From Solitalea longa (GTDB taxonomy: Bacteria; Bacteroidota; Bacteroidia; Sphingobacteriales; Sphingobacteriaceae), in NCBI RefSeq assembly GCF_002920915.1, contig NZ_PQVF01000003.1:1-64000 (forward strand): a DNA stretch of 64,000 nt, given 5' to 3'. A program made the position numbers and the translations under genes. A model generated the notes under the pieces. That model saw nothing but the letters and a program-made list of their open reading frames with translations. It was not told where the DNA came from and ran no database searches. Below, one piece after another: positions 1 to 8,627 of this stretch (positions are counted from its first letter, which is position 1; every line of letters begins with the position of its first letter).

Positions 1-348
1 TGATTTTTGAACGGTATCGCAGTCCCGATAGATCGGGAAGGTCGTAGGTTCGAATCCTGCCACCCCGACGGAAAAAGAAAAGCTCAATCATGAAAATGGT
101 TGGGCTTTTTTGTTTTTTATGATTTTTGAACCGTATCGCAGTTCCGATAGATCGGGAAGGTCATAGGTTCGAATCCTGTCACCCCGACGGGAAAAGAAAA
201 GCTCAATCATGAAAATGATTGGGCTTTTTTGTTTTTTATGATTTTTGAACCGTATCGCAGTCTCGATAGATCGGGAAGGTCGTAGGTTCGAATCCTGCCA
301 CCCCGACGGAAAAAGCTCAATCATGAAAATGGTTGGGCTTTTTTGTTT
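1..348 (+). repeat. three tandem tRNA-tail/terminator repeats
   Basis: Three head-to-tail copies (1-119, 120-238, 239-348; the last is about 5 bases shorter between tail and terminator). Each holds a hairpin TCCCGAT-AG-ATCGGGA (23-38 in copy 1), then a tRNA-like T arm (stem GTAGG 44-48, loop TTCGAAT 49-55, stem CCTGC 56-60), a 3' acceptor strand CACCCCGA, then an intrinsic terminator. No matching 5' acceptor strand (TCGGGGTG) is present, so none of the copies is a whole tRNA. Copy 2 changes the first T-stem pair from G-C to A-T on both sides, and the hairpin changes in copies 2 and 3 turn C-G into U-G, so folding is kept. An intact parent tRNA probably lies left of the window. The arrangement resembles the rtT repeats behind E. 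coli tyrT. Identity is certain as a repeat; a function is inference. Confidence 0.85.
314..344 (+). terminator. intrinsic terminator of the last tRNA-tail repeat
   Basis: Stem AGCTCAATC (314-322) pairs with GGTTGGGCT (331-339) through seven Watson-Crick and two G-U pairs, followed by a T run. The same hairpin ends the two preceding repeat copies; in copy 2 one G-U pair becomes A-U. Confidence 0.75.
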
Positions 349-420
349 AAACAGTTTTGGTTCTGCCGAAACTGCAATTCTGAAACTGATCTGGATGATT
401 ATAAATGGAATACAATAAAA

Positions 421-458
421 AATGAGCTGCCTGGTTTATTGGGCAGCTCATTTTTTTA
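421..458. terminator. bidirectional terminator
   Basis: Perfect 11-base-pair stem AATGAGCTGCC (421-431) with GGCAGCTCATT (442-452), 10-base loop, T run on the right and A run on the left. It can stop plus-strand transcription leaving the tRNA-tail repeats and minus-strand transcription of the small membrane peptide gene at 497-598. Confidence 0.85.
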
Positions 459-496
459 CTATCAGGTGAGTAACTGATGCATTTCTTTGCTTTGAA

Positions 497-598
497 TTAC
501 CATTTAGTGAACGAACTTACCATAAAGAAAATGGCAACAATGGCGAAAATTACAGCATGTTTAGTTTTGAATTCGAATTCTTTTTTTGTCCTTCTCAT
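497..598 (-). CDS. 33-residue single-span membrane peptide
   Basis: A short reading frame with ATG at 598 and TAA at 497-499. The peptide has a basic N terminus (MRRTKKEFEFKTKH) followed by one hydrophobic span, roughly residues 15-30 (AVIFAIVAIFFMVSSF), and ends FTKW. It looks like a small inner-membrane protein with the N terminus inside. Support for a real gene: a promoter-like TAAAATTTGCG sits directly before the ATG on the minus strand, as in other genes of this window where TTTGCG lies a few bases from the start, and a strong bidirectional terminator (421-458) follows the stop. I do not recognise the family and no function can be stated. Codon evidence is weak at this length, so moderate confidence only. 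Confidence 0.5.
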   Translation of the reverse strand: MRRTKKEFEFKTKHAVIFAIVAIFFMVSSFTKW

Positions 599-967
599 AA
601 GCGCAAATTTTACTAAGTGATCATTTAATTACTTATCCTACCCTCTAAAAACCACCTTATATTGTTAAATTATATTAACAGTATTGATAATTTTATGCCA
701 CATTGTACAACTTGCGATCGTTTTTAGATGAAAAGCAGTTAGGAGTGTTGTCTTTCTGCGTTTTTTCTTATTTTTTCTCCCTAGGTTTGATCTGCTATTG
801 CTAGTGCTTAATTGTTTAGAAAATGCTACGGTTTTTAAATGAAAAGTTTTAGGTGCTTATTGGAGCTTATTAAGCCGTTGAATATGAAAAAGGCTTAAGT
901 TTAATTCATAGTTCTTTTTAGCAGAGTTGAGGATGCTTTGGTTTTTAAGGGTTTTTAGCTGATTATC
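599..967. other. non-coding stretch between small peptide and FNR-like gene
   Basis: No reading frame with coding character. It holds the presumed promoter of the small peptide gene at its left end. A weak hairpin (TTATTAAGCC near 867 and GGCTTAA near 891) lies behind the regulator stop on the minus strand but has no T run, so it is not a convincing terminator. Confidence 0.5.
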
Positions 968-1663
968 TTATTTCGACTCGCGTTCAATTACGTTTTGCAG
1001 GTGTTCAGTATTTAAGAGTGCTATCTTTTTGCCGATTACCTTAACCGAATTTTCGGTAACCAGTTCATTCATTACCCGAAAAGCGGTTTCATAGGTAGTG
1101 CCGGAAAATGAAGCGATATCCTGTCGGCTAAGAGTAACATCCAGAAAATTCTCTTCATCCAACCCAAAGGTGTTTTTTAAAGATAGAAGACAGCTTGCTA
1201 CCCTTCCTTTTACTGACATGTGTGCAAGGTCTTTCATTCTTTTTTCTGATTCCTGCAATTCATTTGAATAGAACATCATTAGTTCAAACATTAATGTGGG
1301 GTTAACTTTTAATGAAGACAAAAAGAATTCTTTTTCAATAAAACAAACGGTAGTGGGCTCTAATGCCGTTGCTGAAACTGGGTAGTTCTTCTCTTTGCCA
1401 ATTCCCCGGTGTCCAAAAATTCCTCCTGATGTTGCAAATCGGATGATTAGTTCTTTGTCATCTCCCCATTTTTGATGAACCTTGACTTTTCCTTTATAAA
1501 TAAAATAAATGCCTTTTACCTCATCACCTTCACCGAAAATAAGTTCCCCTTTTTTATAGTCAAGGTTTTTTTTATGAATTTCTACAGCCGGTAGCCATTC
1601 TTTCACGCATAATGAACATAAAAAACAACTTTTTACATCGCACAGATCTTTACTTTTCTTCAT
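968..1663 (-). CDS. Crp/FNR-family regulator with probable Fe-S cluster
   Basis: Transcription factor of 231 residues with an N-terminal cyclic-nucleotide-binding-like beta barrel (about 25-130), a dimer helix, and a C-terminal winged helix (about 165-225; recognition stretch GTTYETAFRVM). Four cysteines are placed as in FNR: C8, C13, C16 and C19 at the N terminus and C107 in a context (TVCFIEKEFF) that lines up with the C122 region of E. coli FNR. Known FNR proteins hold an oxygen-labile [4Fe-4S] cluster there. The recognition helix keeps the Glu and Arg of FNR (E..R) but has Phe in place of the Ser. The gene follows cobA by 48 bases on the same strand and both diverge from nirB, so it probably controls the nitrate cluster. 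FNR-like sensing is inferred; a nitrate or nitric oxide response is equally possible. Confidence 0.85.
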   Translation of the reverse strand: MKKSKDLCDVKSCFLCSLCVKEWLPAVEIHKKNLDYKKGELIFGEGDEVKGIYFIYKGKVKVHQKWGDDKELIIRFATSGGIFGHRGIGKEKNYPVSATALEPTTVCFIEKEFFLSSLKVNPTLMFELMMFYSNELQESEKRMKDLAHMSVKGRVASCLLSLKNTFGLDEENFLDVTLSRQDIASFSGTTYETAFRVMNELVTENSVKVIGKKIALLNTEHLQNVIERESK

Positions 1664-1711
1664 TTATACTACCTCTTTTGATACTGTGGATTAATATACA
1701 ATGATAATCGA

Positions 1712-2443
1712 TTAAACTGCAAATTGGGTCTCTATTTTGGTTACTTCTCCTATAACAATTAATGCAGGGTGAGAGATCTCGCGCTCTTTTGCAAGTGATT
1801 CAAGATCCTTTATGCAGCCTTTGGTAATTTTCATATGAGGTAAGGATGCGTGCTGTATTAATGCAGCAGGAGTTTCACCTTTTCCGCATTTAATGCATTC
1901 GTTAACAATGGCTGGCAGGTTTTTCATTCCCATATAAATAACCACAGTGGTATTGCTTTGCATGGCCAGCTGAATATCTTTTGATAATGAGCCATCTTTT
2001 TTAGTGCCAGTAATGATCCAAATACCTTCGCTGATGCCTCGGTGTGTTAGTGTAATGTCTGACATTCCTACTGCCAGCATGCTGGTTATTCCGGGTATGT
2101 AGTTTGCCTTGATTCCGTTTTGTCTCGCGAAGATGATTTCTTCCATTCCCCGCCCAAAAATAAAGGGATCTCCACCTTTTAAGCGTACAACCAGTTTGTT
2201 GTTAATGGCCTTTTCTTTTATGAGCTCATGAATTCGTTCTTGTGGGGTGTATTCTTTATAAGGAGGTTTGCCCACATAAATTTTTTCACAATCATCTTTA
2301 GCATGATTCAGTAAAACCCGATTTATCAGGTTGTCATATAAAATTACGTCTGCTTTCTTTAAAATATTTACCGCTTTTAGTGTAATTAGCTCCGGATCGC
2401 CAGGTCCTGCGCCAATAATTGTTAATTCTGCTCCTGAATTCAT
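1712..2443 (-). CDS. cobA: uroporphyrinogen-III C-methyltransferase
   Basis: SAM-dependent enzyme of 243 residues that methylates uroporphyrinogen III to precorrin-2, the first step to siroheme. The full family pattern is visible: N-terminal LTIIGAGPGDPELITLKA, the VVRLKGGDPFIFGRG motif about residue 90, PGITSMLAVG about 120, and the TVVIYMGM stretch about 170. It lacks the CysG dehydrogenase/ferrochelatase part, so those steps must be coded elsewhere. Its product supplies siroheme to NirB, whose gene starts 316 bases away on the other strand. It is probably co-transcribed with the FNR-like regulator downstream. Function is firm; choice of the symbol cobA over sumT or cysG is convention. Confidence 0.93.
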   Translation of the reverse strand: MNSGAELTIIGAGPGDPELITLKAVNILKKADVILYDNLINRVLLNHAKDDCEKIYVGKPPYKEYTPQERIHELIKEKAINNKLVVRLKGGDPFIFGRGMEEIIFARQNGIKANYIPGITSMLAVGMSDITLTHRGISEGIWIITGTKKDGSLSKDIQLAMQSNTTVVIYMGMKNLPAIVNECIKCGKGETPAALIQHASLPHMKITKGCIKDLESLAKEREISHPALIVIGEVTKIETQFAV

Positions 2444-2759
2444 GTGTTTTCTAGTTTTTTGTATGAAAAATTCAGTAAAATCAATTTTTGTTTAAGTGTT
2501 ATTGATAAAACTGTAAATAAACGTATTTGTTTTCTCTGTTTATTTGGCTAAAATAGCATATTGAAATATTTTATTTTAATTTTTTTATGATTTTAAAGAT
2601 ATTTTATTTTATTTTTACATCAATAAGCAATTGTAAATCATAATTAACATCATATAATTGCTTTAATATTTACTTTTTTATAACGTTTTAGTAATAATCG
2701 ATATAAAAACATATGAAATCAGATAAAAATTCTCTTTTATAACTAAAAAATAACTGAAT
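2444..2759. promoter_or_regulatory. divergent cobA/nirB control region
   Basis: Very AT-rich 316-base gap between the divergent cobA-fnr and nirB operons, so promoters for both must lie here. Two inverted repeats stand out: ATCAAT (2480-2485) with ATTGAT (2501-2506), and TTTACA (2614-2619) with TGTAAA (2632-2637). Neither has the exact FNR layout TTGAT-N4-ATCAA. I found no clear TAnnTTTG element close to the nirB ATG. In such AT-rich DNA six-base arms can arise by chance. Confidence 0.4.
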
Positions 2760-5264
2760 ATGTCCGAAATATCTACAAAAAATATAGTAATTGTTGGAAA
2801 TGGGATGGTTGGTTATAAGTTTTGTGAAAAATTACTGGCCAAATCCAATAGATTTAATTTAATTGTCTTTGGAGAGGAGCCGAGAGTTGCCTATGACCGG
2901 GTTCATTTAAGTGAATTTTTCTCCGGGAAGACAGCTGATGATCTTAGCATGGCTGACATCAGCTGGTACTCCGACAATAACATAACGCTACACCTTGGCG
3001 ATCCAATAAAGGAAATTAACCGCGAAACCCAAACCATCTACTCTTCAAAAGGCCTCATTCAATCTTATGATTATTTAATTCTGGCAACCGGGTCGGCACC
3101 GTTTGTTCCTAATCTTCCGGGTATTGATAAAAAAGGTGTGTTTGTTTATCGAACTATAGAAGACCTGGAGGCAATGAGCAGACATGCTGAGTTTGCTAAA
3201 AAAGGTGTGGTTATGGGTGGTGGACTTTTAGGATTGGAAGCCGCTAAAGCCTTAATAGACCTGGGCATTGAAGAAACTCATGTAATAGAGTTTGCCCCTC
3301 GTTTAATGCCGCGTCAAATCGACCAAAACGGCAGTAAGTTGCTTCAAAATAAATTAAAAGAACTTGGCCTGCAGGTGCACCTGAATGTAAATACTTCTAA
3401 AATTTTAGGGGATGAAGAAATTACAGGCTTGCAGTTTGCCGACGATACTATAATGAGTTTGGATATGCTGGTGATTTCGGCAGGTATTCGCCCGCGTGAT
3501 GAATTGGCAAAACAATGCGGTTTAGAGGTTGGTCCTCGAGGAGGCATTGTGGTAAATGAGTTCATGCAAACATCTGATGAAAAAGTATTCGCAATTGGCG
3601 AGTGTGCCTTGTTTGATGGAATGATCTACGGGCTGGTGGCTCCCGGATATGAAATGGCCGACATTGTTGCTTCACATTTATGTGATATTGAAAAAAGATT
3701 TAAAGGCTATGATATGAGCACCAAACTTAAATTAATTGGTGTGGATGTGGCCAGCTTTGGAGATCCGTTTATCTGCGAGCCTGATTGTAAGACCATTGTA
3801 TTGGAAGATTCTAACAAAGGTGTTTACAAACGTATTAATATGACTACAGATGGGAAACACCTGTTGGGAGGCGTTTTGGTAGGTGATGCTGAAGCATACA
3901 ATATGTTATTGCAAACAGTAAACAACAAGATCGTGTTGCCTCCAAATCCTGAGGACCTGATATTGGGAGTCAGGGGAGGTGCGGTTGCTGAAGGTGCTGG
4001 TGTAATAAGTTTACCTGACGATGCTCTTATTTGTTCTTGTGAAGCCGTTACAAAAGGTACTATTTGTTCGGCGGTAATTGATCAGGAGATCACCACCATT
4101 GATGGTATGAAAAAATGCACTAAAGCAGGTACCGGTTGCGGTGGTTGTGTACCAATGGTGAAAGACCTGATCAATGGAACGCTGAAGGAAAATGGCAAAT
4201 ACGTTAAAAATGTAATTTGTGAGCATTTTAACTTTTCGCGCCAGGAACTGCTCGATCTCATCAAAATAAACAATATTAAAAATTATGATGAGGTGCTGGA
4301 TACTTTTGGAAAAGGTGACGGGTGCGAAGTGTGCAAACCTGCTGTTGCCAGTATTTTAGCAAGCCTGTGGAATGATCTGATTTTAAAACAAGCCACTATA
4401 CAAGATAGTAACGACCGTTTTTTAGCAAATATTCAAAAAGGCGGTACTTATTCGGTAGTACCTCGTATTGCAGGTGGTGAAATAACTCCCGAAAAGCTGA
4501 TCGTAATCGGTGAAGTCGCAAAAGAATTTGGCCTCTATACCAAAATTACCGGTGGTCAGCGTATCGATATGTTCGGTGCACATCTGAATGATTTACCATT
4601 GATTTGGAAAAGACTTACAGATGCAGGCTTTGAAAGTGGCCATGCCTACGGTAAATCATTGCGTACCGTAAAAAGTTGCGTTGGAAGTACCTGGTGCCGT
4701 TTTGGTTTACATGATAGTGTTTCATTTGCCATTGAAATTGAAAATCGCTACAAGGGTTTACGCTCTCCGCATAAATTAAAAGGCGGCGTTTCCGGATGTA
4801 TCCGCGAGTGTGCCGAAGCACAATCAAAAGACTTTGGAATTATCGCCACTGAAAAAGGCTGGAATCTGTACGTATGTGGTAATGGTGGTTCTAAACCGCA
4901 GCATGCTCAATTGCTGGCTGCCGATATTGATAGCGCAACCTGTATCAAATACCTCGATCGCTTTCTGATGTTCTATATCAAAACTGCTGATCCGCTAACC
5001 CGTACCGCAACCTGGTTAAATAAGATGGAAGGTGGAATGAGCTATTTGAAGAATGTGGTAGTGAATGACAGTTTGAACGTTGCTGAAGAGTTGGAGGCCG
5101 AAATGGAATTACTGATCAAAAACTACAAATGCGAGTGGCTCGAAGTGGTGGAAAACGATGAGATGAAAAAGAAATTCAGCCATTTTGTTAATGCACCTGA
5201 AGTAAAGGACCCTACCGTTTCTTTCGAACCATTAAGAGACCAGGTAATGGCTACTCAATGGTAA
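2760..5264 (+). CDS. nirB: assimilatory nitrite reductase, large subunit
   Basis: Cytoplasmic NAD(P)H-dependent enzyme, 834 residues, reducing nitrite to ammonium. Domains in order: FAD/NAD-binding oxidoreductase (1 to about 310; GNGMVGYKF at the start and GGGLLGLEAA about 155), NirB middle domain, two BFD-like [2Fe-2S] segments (about 420-530, CSCEAV and GTGCGGC), and the ferredoxin-like plus siroheme/[4Fe-4S] domains (about 560-830). The siroheme-cluster ligands are intact: C640-x5-C646 and C680-x3-C684. Length is usual for the family. First gene of the nirB-nirD-porin-narK-nasC-rubredoxin series; nirD starts 32 bases behind it. Siroheme comes from the neighbouring cobA. Confidence 0.96.
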   Translation: MSEISTKNIVIVGNGMVGYKFCEKLLAKSNRFNLIVFGEEPRVAYDRVHLSEFFSGKTADDLSMADISWYSDNNITLHLGDPIKEINRETQTIYSSKGLIQSYDYLILATGSAPFVPNLPGIDKKGVFVYRTIEDLEAMSRHAEFAKKGVVMGGGLLGLEAAKALIDLGIEETHVIEFAPRLMPRQIDQNGSKLLQNKLKELGLQVHLNVNTSKILGDEEITGLQFADDTIMSLDMLVISAGIRPRDELAKQCGLEVGPRGGIVVNEFMQTSDEKVFAIGECALFDGMIYGLVAPGYEMADIVASHLCDIEKRFKGYDMSTKLKLIGVDVASFGDPFICEPDCKTIVLEDSNKGVYKRINMTTDGKHLLGGVLVGDAEAYNMLLQTVNNKIVLPPNPEDLILGVRGGAVAEGAGVISLPDDALICSCEAVTKGTICSAVIDQEITTIDGMKKCTKAGTGCGGCVPMVKDLINGTLKENGKYVKNVICEHFNFSRQELLDLIKINNIKNYDEVLDTFGKGDGCEVCKPAVASILASLWNDLILKQATIQDSNDRFLANIQKGGTYSVVPRIAGGEITPEKLIVIGEVAKEFGLYTKITGGQRIDMFGAHLNDLPLIWKRLTDAGFESGHAYGKSLRTVKSCVGSTWCRFGLHDSVSFAIEIENRYKGLRSPHKLKGGVSGCIRECAEAQSKDFGIIATEKGWNLYVCGNGGSKPQHAQLLAADIDSATCIKYLDRFLMFYIKTADPLTRTATWLNKMEGGMSYLKNVVVNDSLNVAEELEAEMELLIKNYKCEWLEVVENDEMKKKFSHFVNAPEVKDPTVSFEPLRDQVMATQW

Positions 5265-5296
5265 TTGATAATTCTGTTAACTAAAAAACTACTGCT

Positions 5297-5653
5297 ATGA
5301 ATCAAGATGTAATGACAGCCTGTGAATGGGTTATGGTGTGTGATGCCACTGATATTCCCGAAAATGGAGGAGCCTGTGTAAAAGTTGAAGATGTACAAAT
5401 TGCCGTTTTCAACTTTGCAAGAAGAAATGAGTGGTATGCAACTCAAAATTTATGTCCTCATAAACAACAAATGGTGCTTTCGAGGGGAATGATAGGAAGC
5501 GCCGGCGATAACTGTGAACCTAAAGTGGCCTGCCCGTTTCATAAGAATACCTTTTCACTGCAAACCGGAAAATGCCTCAGTAATGATGAGTTAGAAATAA
5601 AAGTATATCCGATTAAAGTTGAAAACGGGAAGGTATATGTGAGTTTGGAATAA
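5297..5653 (+). CDS. nirD: nitrite reductase small subunit, Rieske type
   Basis: Protein of 118 residues of the NirD/Rieske ferredoxin family, the partner of NirB. Unlike E. coli NirD, which lost its cluster ligands, this one keeps a full Rieske set: C53-x-H55 (CPH) and C79-x2-H82 (CPFH), so it should bind [2Fe-2S]. It probably passes electrons or stabilises the NirB complex in the cytoplasm. The gene starts 32 bases after nirB. Membership in the family is clear; whether the cluster takes part in catalysis is inference. Confidence 0.93.
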   Translation: MNQDVMTACEWVMVCDATDIPENGGACVKVEDVQIAVFNFARRNEWYATQNLCPHKQQMVLSRGMIGSAGDNCEPKVACPFHKNTFSLQTGKCLSNDELEIKVYPIKVENGKVYVSLE

Positions 5654-5673
5654 AGATCTGATGAAAAGAAAAA

Positions 5674-5704
5674 CCCCAACCCAGAATTGCAGTCTGTATT
5701 GGGG
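5674..5704 (+). other. stem-loop between nirD and porin gene
   Basis: CCCCAA (5674-5679) pairs with TTGGGG (5699-5704) over a 19-base loop, in the 94-base gap that is the longest within the operon. No T run follows, so it is more likely an mRNA processing or stability element, or a weak attenuator, than a terminator. Confidence 0.4.
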
Positions 5705-5747
5705 AAATAAGTTTCAAGATCTGTTAATTACTTAAAACCAGTGCCAA

Positions 5748-7286
5748 ATGTATTTAAAAAATAGATTATTTGCTGCCGTTTTTGTTCTCATTCTGATTTT
5801 TTCAGCAACTACAAATTCTTTCGCCCAATTGACGCTAAATGCACAACTACGGGCACGCGCTGAATACCGAAATGGCTTTTCCAATCTTTTACCTTCCAGT
5901 GCTCAATCAGCCGACTTTATTTCGCAACGAACCCGCTTAGGCTTTGGGTATAAGTGGAATTTTTTGGTGGTGGGAGGCAGTATTCAGGATGTGAGGGTAT
6001 GGGGACAAGATGCTTCAACCATTAGCAATTCGGATGGTAATAAGCTGATGTTGCACGAAGGTTGGGCCGAAGTTATTTTGGCGAATAAAGCCGATACTTC
6101 CAACCAGTTCAAGCTCCTAGATTTTCTTTCATTTAAAATTGGTCGTCAGGAACTGATCTATGATGATGCCCGATTAATTGGCAACCTCGATTGGACGCAA
6201 CAAGGCCGTCGATTCGACATGGCTTTACTAAAAGCTGTTCATAAAGGCTGGCAACTCGATTTAGGCTATGCCTATAATCAAAACAGCGAAAAAATGTCGG
6301 GTAACAATTATGTTCCCGGTAATGTTCCGCAGTATATAAAAAATGATCAGGGAGTGCTGGTACCTACGCCCGAGGGAATGGTCCCTTTAACCAATGCTTC
6401 GGGAAATAGTGCGGCCAATGGAAATCCCACGTACACCAATCCGCCCACAACAAACGGGGGCACACAGGATTATAAAAAGTTTGCCAGTGTTTACCTGAGC
6501 AAATCGTTTAACAATACCAAGCTTTCGGCATTGTTCTTTAATGATAAGTTTGGAAAGTACCGCGCCGCCATCGTTGAAACGAACGGAGGTGTTGTGTACG
6601 GCAGATATTTCGATGTTGAAGGTTCTTCCAGTCGCTTAACTTATGGGCTTATGGCTGTGCAAAGCTTTCCGATAACAGCTAATAAAAGTACGGTTAAGCT
6701 TCAGTTGAATTACTACCAACAGTCGGGAGAAGATCGTGATGACCGTGATCTGAATGCCTATCATTACAGTGTATTTGCCACTTTTAATAAAGGCCGATTT
6801 AGCATCGGTCCTGGTTTCGACTATTTATCAGGAAATAAAGCTTCAACCCCATCAACAGAAAGCAAACGCTTTGATCCGCTTTACGGAACCCCGCACAAGT
6901 TTTGGGGCTACATGGATTATTTCTACGCAGCAACCGGTTCTCCGGCGCAGGGATTAAAAAATGCTTACATCAAATCTAAGTTCACCGAAAAGATCTACTC
7001 AGTTGCTTTGGATTACCACCATTTTGAGGTAGCCAATGAAATGGCCGCTACCACACAAAAAAATCTGGGCGATGAGTTTGACTTAACAGCAAGTTGCAAC
7101 CTGAATAAATTCACCACGCTCGATTTTGGATACTCAGTTATGCTTGCAACCGATGCCATGCCATATGCTAAAGGGCAATCTCCCACGATGCCAACAGCAA
7201 ACTTCGATAAAACGGCGCAGTGGGCCTATCTGTCGGTCAGTATAAAGCCTGAGTTTATTTTCAGCAAGCAAGCGTCCGTCAAATAA
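5748..7286 (+). CDS. outer-membrane beta-barrel porin, alginate-export-like
   Basis: Protein of 512 residues with a clear signal peptide (cleavage after about residue 26, SFAQ) and then alternating aromatic/polar beta strands of an outer-membrane barrel (for example RLGFGYKWNF, LDLGYAYNQ, TLDFGYSVML). It resembles the alginate-export family barrels that Bacteroidota often carry beside nitrate transporters. Position between nirD and narK suggests that it lets nitrate or nitrite through the outer membrane; this role is inferred from context only. A low-complexity Asn/Gly/Thr/Pro loop (about residues 215-240) is probably exposed. No catalytic residues are recognisable. Confidence 0.8.
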   Translation: MYLKNRLFAAVFVLILIFSATTNSFAQLTLNAQLRARAEYRNGFSNLLPSSAQSADFISQRTRLGFGYKWNFLVVGGSIQDVRVWGQDASTISNSDGNKLMLHEGWAEVILANKADTSNQFKLLDFLSFKIGRQELIYDDARLIGNLDWTQQGRRFDMALLKAVHKGWQLDLGYAYNQNSEKMSGNNYVPGNVPQYIKNDQGVLVPTPEGMVPLTNASGNSAANGNPTYTNPPTTNGGTQDYKKFASVYLSKSFNNTKLSALFFNDKFGKYRAAIVETNGGVVYGRYFDVEGSSSRLTYGLMAVQSFPITANKSTVKLQLNYYQQSGEDRDDRDLNAYHYSVFATFNKGRFSIGPGFDYLSGNKASTPSTESKRFDPLYGTPHKFWGYMDYFYAATGSPAQGLKNAYIKSKFTEKIYSVALDYHHFEVANEMAATTQKNLGDEFDLTASCNLNKFTTLDFGYSVMLATDAMPYAKGQSPTMPTANFDKTAQWAYLSVSIKPEFIFSKQASVK

Positions 7287-7322
7287 TAATCCCTCCTAAT
7301 TAATTACCTCAAAAAAATCAAC

Positions 7323-8627
7323 ATGGAAAACTTCAACACAAAACCCCTGACAAAACTGAATATATTTTCCTTTAAAGGCGTTCAAATGCGAACGTTCCAT
7401 ATCACCTGGTTAACCTTTTTTGTTTGTTTCTTCGGATGGTTCGGACTGGCTCCTTTAATGCCAACTATTCGAACCGATCTTGGTTTGTCTAAAGCACAGG
7501 TGGGTAATACAATTATAGCGGCTGTTTCGGCTACTATTTTTGCCCGGTTAATTATAGGTAAACTGTGTGATACCTGGGGCCCAAGGAAAACGTATACTAC
7601 TTTATTGATCATTGGTTCATTACCGGTGATGTTGGTGGGTTTAGCCCATTCATATACTACGTTTTTATTGTTCCGGTTGGCTATTGGTGTAATTGGAGCT
7701 TCGTTCGTTATTACCCAGTTTCATACTTCGATAATGTTTGCCCCCAAAATTAAAGGAACGGTAAATGCTGTTGCAGGGGGGTGGGGTAATTTGGGCGGTG
7801 GAGTAACCAACATGTTAATGCCACTGATCTTTGCCATGATCGTTGGTTTCGGTTATACTTCATCACAAGCCTGGCGCTATGCAATGATCTTTCCTGGGGT
7901 GTTGCTCCTGGTTATGGCTTACCTATATTATAACTACACAACCGATACACCCGAAGGTAATTTCAGCGAACTTAACAGAACACATAAAACTTCTTCGAAA
8001 ACCGATTGGAGCATTTTAGCCGATTGGAGAGTGTGGTCATTAGCATTGGCTTACTCAGTTTGCTTTGGTATGGAAATCACTTTCGATGGAGTTGCCGCTC
8101 TCCACTTTACCGATTCATTTCACCTTTCTCAATCATCTGCCGGTTTTTGGGCAGGTATTTTCGGCTTTATGAATTTGTTTGCAAGAGCATTAGGTGGCAT
8201 TGCCGCCGATAAGGTGAACCTGAAATTCGGAATAAGGGGTAAAGGTATTTTACTTGCCTGTTTGCTGCTGTTAGAAGGAGTGGGAATTATTCTTTTTGCA
8301 CAGGCAGGATCATTAGTAATGGCGATTATCTCCATGCTTGGTTTTGCCATGTTCCTTAAAATGGCAAATGGTGCCACATATTCTATCACACCTTTTGTAA
8401 ATGAAAAAAATGTGGGTTTGGTAAGCGGTATTGTTGGCGCGGGCGGGAATGTTGGAGGTATGTTATTCGGATTTCTGTTTAAATCAGAGTCGATTAGCTA
8501 CGAACAGGCATTTGTTTATATAGGTTATGTAGTTATTGCTGTGTCGTGTTTGGTGCTATTTACTCGTTTTGCTAAACCTAAGGTAAGCGAAGATTACGTT
8601 TTGGATAGCAAGATGGCCGGAGCATAA
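7323..8627 (+). CDS. narK: nitrate/nitrite transporter of the major facilitator type
   Basis: Inner-membrane transporter of 434 residues with about 12 membrane spans. Both nitrate signatures of the NarK/NasA/NRT2 group are present: GGWGNLGGGVTNMLMP in the fifth span region and GIVGAGGNVGGMLFGF in the eleventh. The substrate-contacting arginine of span 2 is in FARLIIGKLCD. It should take up nitrate (or exchange nitrate for nitrite). It lies 36 bases after the porin gene and 30 bases before the nitrate reductase gene, consistent with one transcript. NarK is used in the broad sense; NasA would be an equally fair name. Confidence 0.93.
   Translation: MENFNTKPLTKLNIFSFKGVQMRTFHITWLTFFVCFFGWFGLAPLMPTIRTDLGLSKAQVGNTIIAAVSATIFARLIIGKLCDTWGPRKTYTTLLIIGSLPVMLVGLAHSYTTFLLFRLAIGVIGASFVITQFHTSIMFAPKIKGTVNAVAGGWGNLGGGVTNMLMPLIFAMIVGFGYTSSQAWRYAMIFPGVLLLVMAYLYYNYTTDTPEGNFSELNRTHKTSSKTDWSILADWRVWSLALAYSVCFGMEITFDGVAALHFTDSFHLSQSSAGFWAGIFGFMNLFARALGGIAADKVNLKFGIRGKGILLACLLLLEGVGIILFAQAGSLVMAIISMLGFAMFLKMANGATYSITPFVNEKNVGLVSGIVGAGGNVGGMLFGFLFKSESISYEQAFVYIGYVVIAVSCLVLFTRFAKPKVSEDYVLDSKMAGA

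Follow-up and report, generated by a model that had tools for sequence, protein, structure and literature searches.

The first 348 nucleotides of the window, by which we mean the whole 64,000-nucleotide stretch of Solitalea longa DNA that was analysed, probably constitute a remnant, devoid of an open reading frame (ORF), of a tRNA-Pro element of the tRNA-tail GIY-YIG family, left behind by recombination across the tails. The full layout of such an element, as read in relatives, comprises an intact tRNA gene, a terminator, a GIY-YIG ORF of ~80 residues, a palindrome-bearing broken copy of that same tRNA and a terminator, and it occurs singly or in tandem. A sequence-only reading had described the array as tandem repeats of a tRNA tail. 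The observation is confirmed and its interpretation partly supported, and the analysis goes beyond it in two respects: a palindrome replaces the anticodon arm, and behind many tRNAs a tail of this kind forms the end of a GIY-YIG nuclease gene.

Anatomy of the array

Tandem Repeats Finder reported a single array at window positions 1-348, with a period of 119, 3.0 copies and 93% matches. Together with direct reading and folding, this result confirmed the three units of about 119 bp that the sequence-only reading had described, each with a 16-nt hairpin, a T arm, a 7-nt acceptor 3′ strand and a terminator hairpin (Table 1). The same reading had found no 5′ half of a tRNA, and on this point it needs correction. 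Alignment with the second tRNA-Pro(TGG) of contig C9 resolved each unit into 9 nt of D arm, the palindrome, a variable region, the T arm, the acceptor 3′ strand and the terminator; a piece of the tRNA-Pro D arm thus precedes the hairpin, and the 16-nt palindrome occupies the slot of the 17-nt anticodon arm in every unit. No tRNA was found in the array by ARAGORN or by Rfam at gathering scores, and Rfam revealed no known RNA family there. Just 3′ of the array, window positions 968-8627 look, from ORF reading only, like a nitrite assimilation cluster, with ORFs for a CRP-like regulator, a uroporphyrinogen methyltransferase, nitrite reductase subunits, an outer-membrane protein and a transporter.

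Table 1. Features of the array, with positions in the window
Feature	Position	Strand	Basis or remark
Unit 1: link, D-arm remnant, palindrome, T arm, acceptor 3′ strand, terminator	1-118	+	Begins at contig end
Unit 2	119-237	+	
Unit 3	238-348	+	Several bases short ahead of terminator and at its end
tRNA-Pro D-arm remnant CGGTATCGC, unit 1	12-20	+	Exact against parent tRNA (alignment)
D-arm remnant CCGTATCGC, units 2 and 3	131-139 and 250-258	+	One change against parent tRNA (alignment)
Palindrome TCCCGATAGATCGGGA replacing anticodon arm, unit 1	23-38	+	
Palindrome TTCCGATAGATCGGGA, unit 2	142-157	+	
Palindrome TCTCGATAGATCGGGA, unit 3	261-276	+	
T arm (44-60) and acceptor 3′ strand (61-67), unit 1	44-67	+	Identical to tRNA-Pro(TGG) parent on contig C9
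T arm (163-179) and acceptor 3′ strand (180-186), unit 2	163-186	+	A163-T179 double change (alignment)
T arm (282-298) and acceptor 3′ strand (299-305), unit 3	282-305	+	Alignment
Intrinsic terminator, unit 1	76-111	+	Terminator scan
Intrinsic terminator, unit 2	195-230	+	Terminator scan
Terminator-like hairpin, unit 3	310-344	+	Fold and reading; absent from terminator scan list

The base changes that the sequence-only reading had singled out between copies were all found. The first T-stem pair is G44-C60 in unit 1 and G282-C298 in unit 3 but A163-T179, altered on both sides, in unit 2, and the palindromes of units 2 and 3 each carry one C-to-T change that turns a C-G into a U.G pair. On its further claim that folding persists, each of the three units folded better than any of 200 shuffled sequences. 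The T arm is missing from the minimum-energy fold of units 2 and 3, where UUGAACC pairs with GGUUCGAA in one long hairpin. Because the structure-keeping changes are so few, they argue only weakly for selection on structure.

These data bear on whether the tails are kept as RNA, whether as decoys for tRNA-processing or tRNA-cutting enzymes, as a source of small RNAs or as a stabilising 3′ end of the nuclease messenger. Such a role could account for the retention of a T arm and acceptor strand that match the parent, for the stable folds, for the two-sided T-stem change of unit 2 and for the position of the tail directly 3′ of the ORF in full elements. We nonetheless consider it quite improbable, given that terminators lie before and after each unit, that a sigma-70 type scan, which covers Bacteroidota promoters poorly, detected no promoter-like site in the array, that two of the three units favour a fold without the T arm, and that the T arm itself is interrupted by a palindrome in several elements. 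The double change in unit 2 was also considered separately as a sign of selected RNA structure and was set aside, as it is one double change accompanied by a few wobble-keeping ones in an array where the other fold is preferred by most units.

The parent tRNA-Pro gene and same-genus genomes

The array begins at base 1 of contig C23 in a genome assembled into 36 contigs, so the three copies are a lower bound. Read outward, the end of contig C9 carries tRNA-Ser(GCT), two consecutive copies of tRNA-Pro(TGG) and then the terminator of the array. The tRNA-Pro(TGG) at this end, with T arm, acceptor strand and terminator matching those of the array, is the intact parent for which the sequence-only reading had proposed to look on the left of the window. 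Judged by this alignment, the array units are evidently broken copies of the tRNA-Pro(TGG) gene that precedes the array. The join between C9 and C23 is supported by a same-genus genome, G001, in which an intact tRNA-Pro and its terminator are followed by TTTTTTATGATTTTTGAACAATATCGCAGTCC, corresponding to the link, D-arm remnant and palindrome start of the window, before the sequences diverge.

Contig C9 could be aligned with G001 and with two further same-genus genomes, G002 and G003, over 2.5-4.2 kb at 77-82% identity. Among the four same-genus genomes, only Solitalea longa (G000) and G001 have tRNA-Pro tails, that of G001 being a relic; G002 and G003 have no tail directly 3′ of their tRNA-Pro genes. 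The expectation that copies would lie at the same place in relatives was therefore borne out in one of these genomes and not in the other two. In G002, a degenerate tRNA-Pro 3′ end with the old terminator is situated ~40 kb from the tRNA-Pro genes (G002:C1:1750923-1791245), and the same terminator sequence is present once more at 1862407, an arrangement that resembles an island or a rearrangement at tRNA-Pro.

A distant 3′ end of this kind is what an inserted island would leave, and it is the one point in favour of interpreting the tails as attachment-site remnants of integrative islands that used tRNA-Pro. This origin was set aside because, in the array as read from the contig break onwards, one 119-bp unit follows directly on another and no sequence intervenes. 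Moreover, each unit has a palindrome and a terminator, neither of which an attachment site needs, and the same layout recurs with a GIY-YIG ORF; altogether we regard an attachment-site origin as highly improbable.

Related loci in Solitalea longa and its genus

A second tRNA locus of the same genome contains what the array lacks. Contig C3 starts with a tRNA-Lys 3′ half and terminator, followed by a GIY-YIG ORF (PF01541, C3:72-284), a D-arm remnant and TCCCGATTTATCGGGA; beyond TCCCGATTTATCGGGA lie the tRNA-Lys T arm and acceptor strand, a terminator and a repeat of the first 14 nt of the ORF. The tRNA-Lys locus of Solitalea longa is the full form of the element, with its GIY-YIG ORF. At another contig end (L061, G000:C4:1-1200, - strand), intact tRNA-Lys(TTT) genes alternate in an array with a full tRNA-Lys 5′ half that has TCCCGATTTATCGGGA as its anticodon arm and is cut off within the T arm. 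The palindrome TCCCGAT(0-5)ATCGGGA occurs at 11 sites in this 4.5 Mb genome, compared with 0 for the pattern read backwards, and five of these sites are inside tRNA copies and one is behind tRNA-Gln. Dispersed copies of the window unit were not found in the genome, and unit 1 gave no blastn match in a phage collection.

Within the genus, the tRNA-Asp site is empty in Solitalea longa, whereas G002 has a single ORF there and G001 has four units. The latter (L286, G001:C29) are tandem GIY-YIG units of ~366 bp each behind the tRNA-Asp genes, and past the last terminator the first ORF bases recur ahead of host sequence. Occupied and empty sites at one locus in related genomes, a trait of free-standing homing endonuclease elements, were thus observed for both tRNA-Asp and tRNA-Pro.

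Layout and spread of the full element

Broken copies with the palindrome TCCCGA..TCGGGA or a similar one lie behind genes for tRNA-Val, Met, Leu, Ala, Asp, Asn, Arg, Lys and Pro. A search for the palindrome together with a T arm returned 25 places in 13 of 251 family genomes and 0 in the control; most of those loci carry the full layout, and some broken copies have no ORF. When named genomes were searched for the pattern, at least 117 stretches matched. Among the matches listed, 72 of the 80 from Bacteroidota were broken copies, 39 of these with a GIY-YIG ORF within 300 nt, and most of those from other phyla lay in ordinary intact tRNAs. A few Ignavibacteriota, Nitrospirota, Kiritimatiellota and other records also contain broken copies, for which contamination of metagenome bins is possible.

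The pattern searches selected CCCGA palindromes, and only a sample based on PF01541 is free of that choice. This palindrome-independent search of 81 family genomes yielded 90 loci, which were read individually. Here a tRNA was located upstream of 1 of 48 small ORFs in the YhbQ-like clade as against 40 of 54 other small GIY-YIG ORFs (p = 3e-15); the isotypes in this sample include Val, Met, Leu, Ala, Asp, Asn, Arg and Ser. Where the ORF lies <200 nt from the tRNA, it starts 19-75 nt behind it in 25 of 30 cases. Behind the majority of tRNA-linked ORFs comes a copy of the parent 3′ half, with a score well beyond those of shuffled sequences. The tRNA 3′ half plus terminator forms direct repeats flanking the ORF; in several loci the repeat extends to the ORF start. 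One locus has the reverse of the usual order, with a GIY-YIG ORF 13 nt before an intact tRNA-Arg(CCT) and no upstream tRNA within the stretch read (L240, G047:C1:102099-102296, - strand).

On these comparisons, the tRNA-tail GIY-YIG elements appear to be a widespread and seemingly undescribed family, mainly of Bacteroidota. The open papers searched, a set outside which most subscription journals and preprints fall, included no account of an association between GIY-YIG genes and tRNAs or their tails, the closest being the study of phage SegB discussed below. Under the terms searched, the GIY-YIG superfamily survey (PMC1564403) likewise held nothing on such an association. Literature searches on rtT repeats brought up nothing of use.

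The GIY-YIG ORF

Five ORFs from full elements match PF01541 at 46-64 bits, compared with a curated cut-off of 22.6. The GIY-YIG active site is made up of an invariant Tyr, Tyr-x-Gly, Arg and Glu, and Y5, Y16, G18, R26 and E62 are invariant in the alignment. By sequence, the closest solved structures are PDB 1zg2 and 1ywl, which are YhbQ/YazA-like (UPF0213) proteins. With dN/dS values of 0.05-0.18 where computable, the ORF is under purifying selection.

On a tree of the ORFs, which rests on 81 columns and has many unsupported forks, the YhbQ-like rows form a separate, supported clade without tails. The tRNA isotypes cluster on this tree, requiring 19 changes in comparison with a shuffled mean of 39.9, and 0 of 200 shuffles gave a value as low; despite the few columns, this clustering points to target-specific nuclease lineages. 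Switches of isotype were also seen, for instance Chryseobacterium Arg(TCT) inside the Val group. The TCCGCC/TCCGTT palindromes, seven in total, all belong to a single Met clade. A tblastn search with one representative ORF found nothing in phage or plasmid collections, and an alignment-based search of viral contigs returned no relatives of the tRNA-linked proteins.

Tails resemble their own parent tRNA

Over its last 25 nt, the tail matches its own parent at 0.90 and foreign parents of the same isotype at 0.75, the own-parent match being higher in 47 tails and lower in 3 (p = 2e-9); on the D-arm side, the own parent is scarcely better than foreign ones. The two tandem ORFs of G014 have diverged at 80% of their synonymous sites and at 14% of their nonsynonymous ones, and their tails are nonetheless near the parent. 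Judging from this likeness, the tails are not ordinary old debris, and tail and parent are kept alike either through recombination or through selection on the tail. Since tails match their own parent far above same-isotype parents elsewhere, recombination with the parent tRNA is the best fit among the three roles that the sequence-only reading had put forward; its decoy and small-RNA roles gained no support.

The stretches from ORF to tail end also contain longer palindromes than expected, with a best perfect stem of 6.8 bp on average versus 4.3 bp in shuffles, 5.0 bp in the parents and 5.5 bp downstream of tail-less controls. The palindrome is placed in the D loop for Asn, in the anticodon arm for Val, Lys, Pro and some Leu, just past the anticodon arm for Met and Asp, and in the T arm or T loop for Leu, Met and Ser. 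Because its place differs among elements, the data do not point to one fixed position in the tRNA at which cutting would occur. Individual tail copies in two tRNA-Pro arrays (L132 and L125) hold further, differing palindromes in the T arm, as if palindromes came repeatedly into broken tRNA copies. An intact parent tRNA persists beside the palindrome-interrupted broken copy in the elements.

Origin of the ORF-less array

Arrays of at least two ORF-less units are present at L106 (Algoriphagus, Pro), L125, L132, L201, L212 and L218. The loss of an ORF inside an array is demonstrated by L082, where the ORF-less units retain GGCTGATCTCAAAGTAG, with which the ORF of the neighbouring unit ends (its final codons and stop). 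The window array has the palindrome-marked tandem copies of an adjacent tRNA, with terminator, that characterise the family and has no GIY-YIG ORF; a tblastn search of the window unit with all collected GIY-YIG ORFs recognised no ORF remnant. Since the units hold no such remnant, we infer the status of the array from its layout and do not call it a full member. Elsewhere (L046, G035:C28), an ORF-less tRNA-Pro tail with a palindrome lies ~150 bp upstream of a tRNA-Pro gene and is oriented opposite to it.

A lack of ORF remnants is equally what would be expected if unequal crossover had duplicated the tRNA-Pro 3′ half and terminator, with the copies now decaying as neutral debris and the GIY-YIG elements at other tRNAs being unrelated. 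The palindromes of units 2 and 3, which are starting to lose pairs to wobbles, and the absence of tails from two of the four same-genus genomes would agree with this history. However, plain duplication leaves a palindrome in the anticodon-arm slot unexplained, L082 has ORF-less units adjoining ORF-bearing ones, and the palindrome, D-arm remnant and tail of the window array are arranged as in the ORF-bearing units at tRNA-Lys in the same genome and in the tRNA-Pro elements L122, L134 and L052. Neutral duplication is thus, in our judgement, unlikely.

The preferred reading, that the array is what remains of a tRNA-Pro element, can be framed with a phage precedent, which is the nearest case to have been demonstrated. 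In phage T6, the free-standing GIY-YIG homing endonuclease SegB causes tRNA-Tyr and its own gene to be amplified in tandem via breaks and homologous recombination, and SegB homologues have been reported from phages of Bacteroidota too (PMC13096335). With a conserved nuclease gene, flanking direct repeats, tandem arrays and empty sites in related species, the elements hold what a SegB-like process needs. We propose that the nuclease would cut at or near the tRNA copy, and that units would be inserted, multiplied or deleted when the break is repaired through homologous recombination between copies of the tRNA 3′ half and terminator. The palindrome would prevent the copy from functioning as a tRNA; it may also mark where cutting takes place, or be a scar of it. 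In the window, the ORF may have been lost through such a deletion, after which the short tail units would have multiplied.

A bolder and more doubtful possibility is that these loci represent a new kind of single-gene element, in which a minimal GIY-YIG nuclease might act on tRNA-shaped or palindromic DNA, bring palindromes into spare tRNA copies and spread along tRNA genes of many isotypes, recombining through a tail that is kept identical to the local tRNA. The window array would then be a non-autonomous form, on which the tRNA-Lys nuclease encoded elsewhere in this genome perhaps still acts in trans.

Should the preferred reading be correct, a whole bacterial phylum would harbour, at its tRNA genes, hidden elements with a tiny nuclease and a piece of the gene behind which they lie. 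Arrays of tRNA tails in tandem would then be explained, as would assembly contigs that break at tRNA genes. What is known of SegB in phages would be carried over to bacterial chromosomes, and the persistence of a nuclease beside essential genes could be addressed in a compact system.

Comparison with known systems

The rtT repeats of E. coli are tandem, lie behind tyrT and contain a piece of the tRNA 3′ end. The parallel drawn by the sequence-only reading holds for this layout of tandem repeats behind a tRNA gene with part of its 3′ end, but the Rfam RtT covariance model gave no match at E up to 1 in the locus holding window positions 1-1860 (L001), and the window units differ in having a palindrome, a D-arm remnant and a terminator each and a tie to GIY-YIG genes. 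MITEs are non-autonomous derivatives, and they resemble the ORF-less copies that retain the ends of the parent element, as seen in L082 and presumed for the window array; unlike MITEs, the copies here were seen only in tandem at the home site, the window unit not being dispersed in the genome. REP palindromes accompany RAYT transposases, which are Y1 transposases. The pairing of short palindromes with a small single-gene nuclease is common to REP/RAYT systems (REP families: PMC3733652) and the elements described here, in which, however, the enzyme is a GIY-YIG protein and the palindromes are inside tRNA copies. YhbQ/YazA-like proteins (UPF0213) have the same domain and size as the tRNA-linked ORFs and differ in their clade, in their rarity near tRNAs and in lacking tails. 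Compared with SegB of the T-even phages, the elements, known here from sequence alone, are chromosomal, encode ~80 residues and are always found behind a tRNA and followed by a palindrome-marked broken copy of it; they share with SegB a GIY-YIG gene beside tRNA genes of many isotypes and the tandem amplification of tRNA plus nuclease (PMC13096335).
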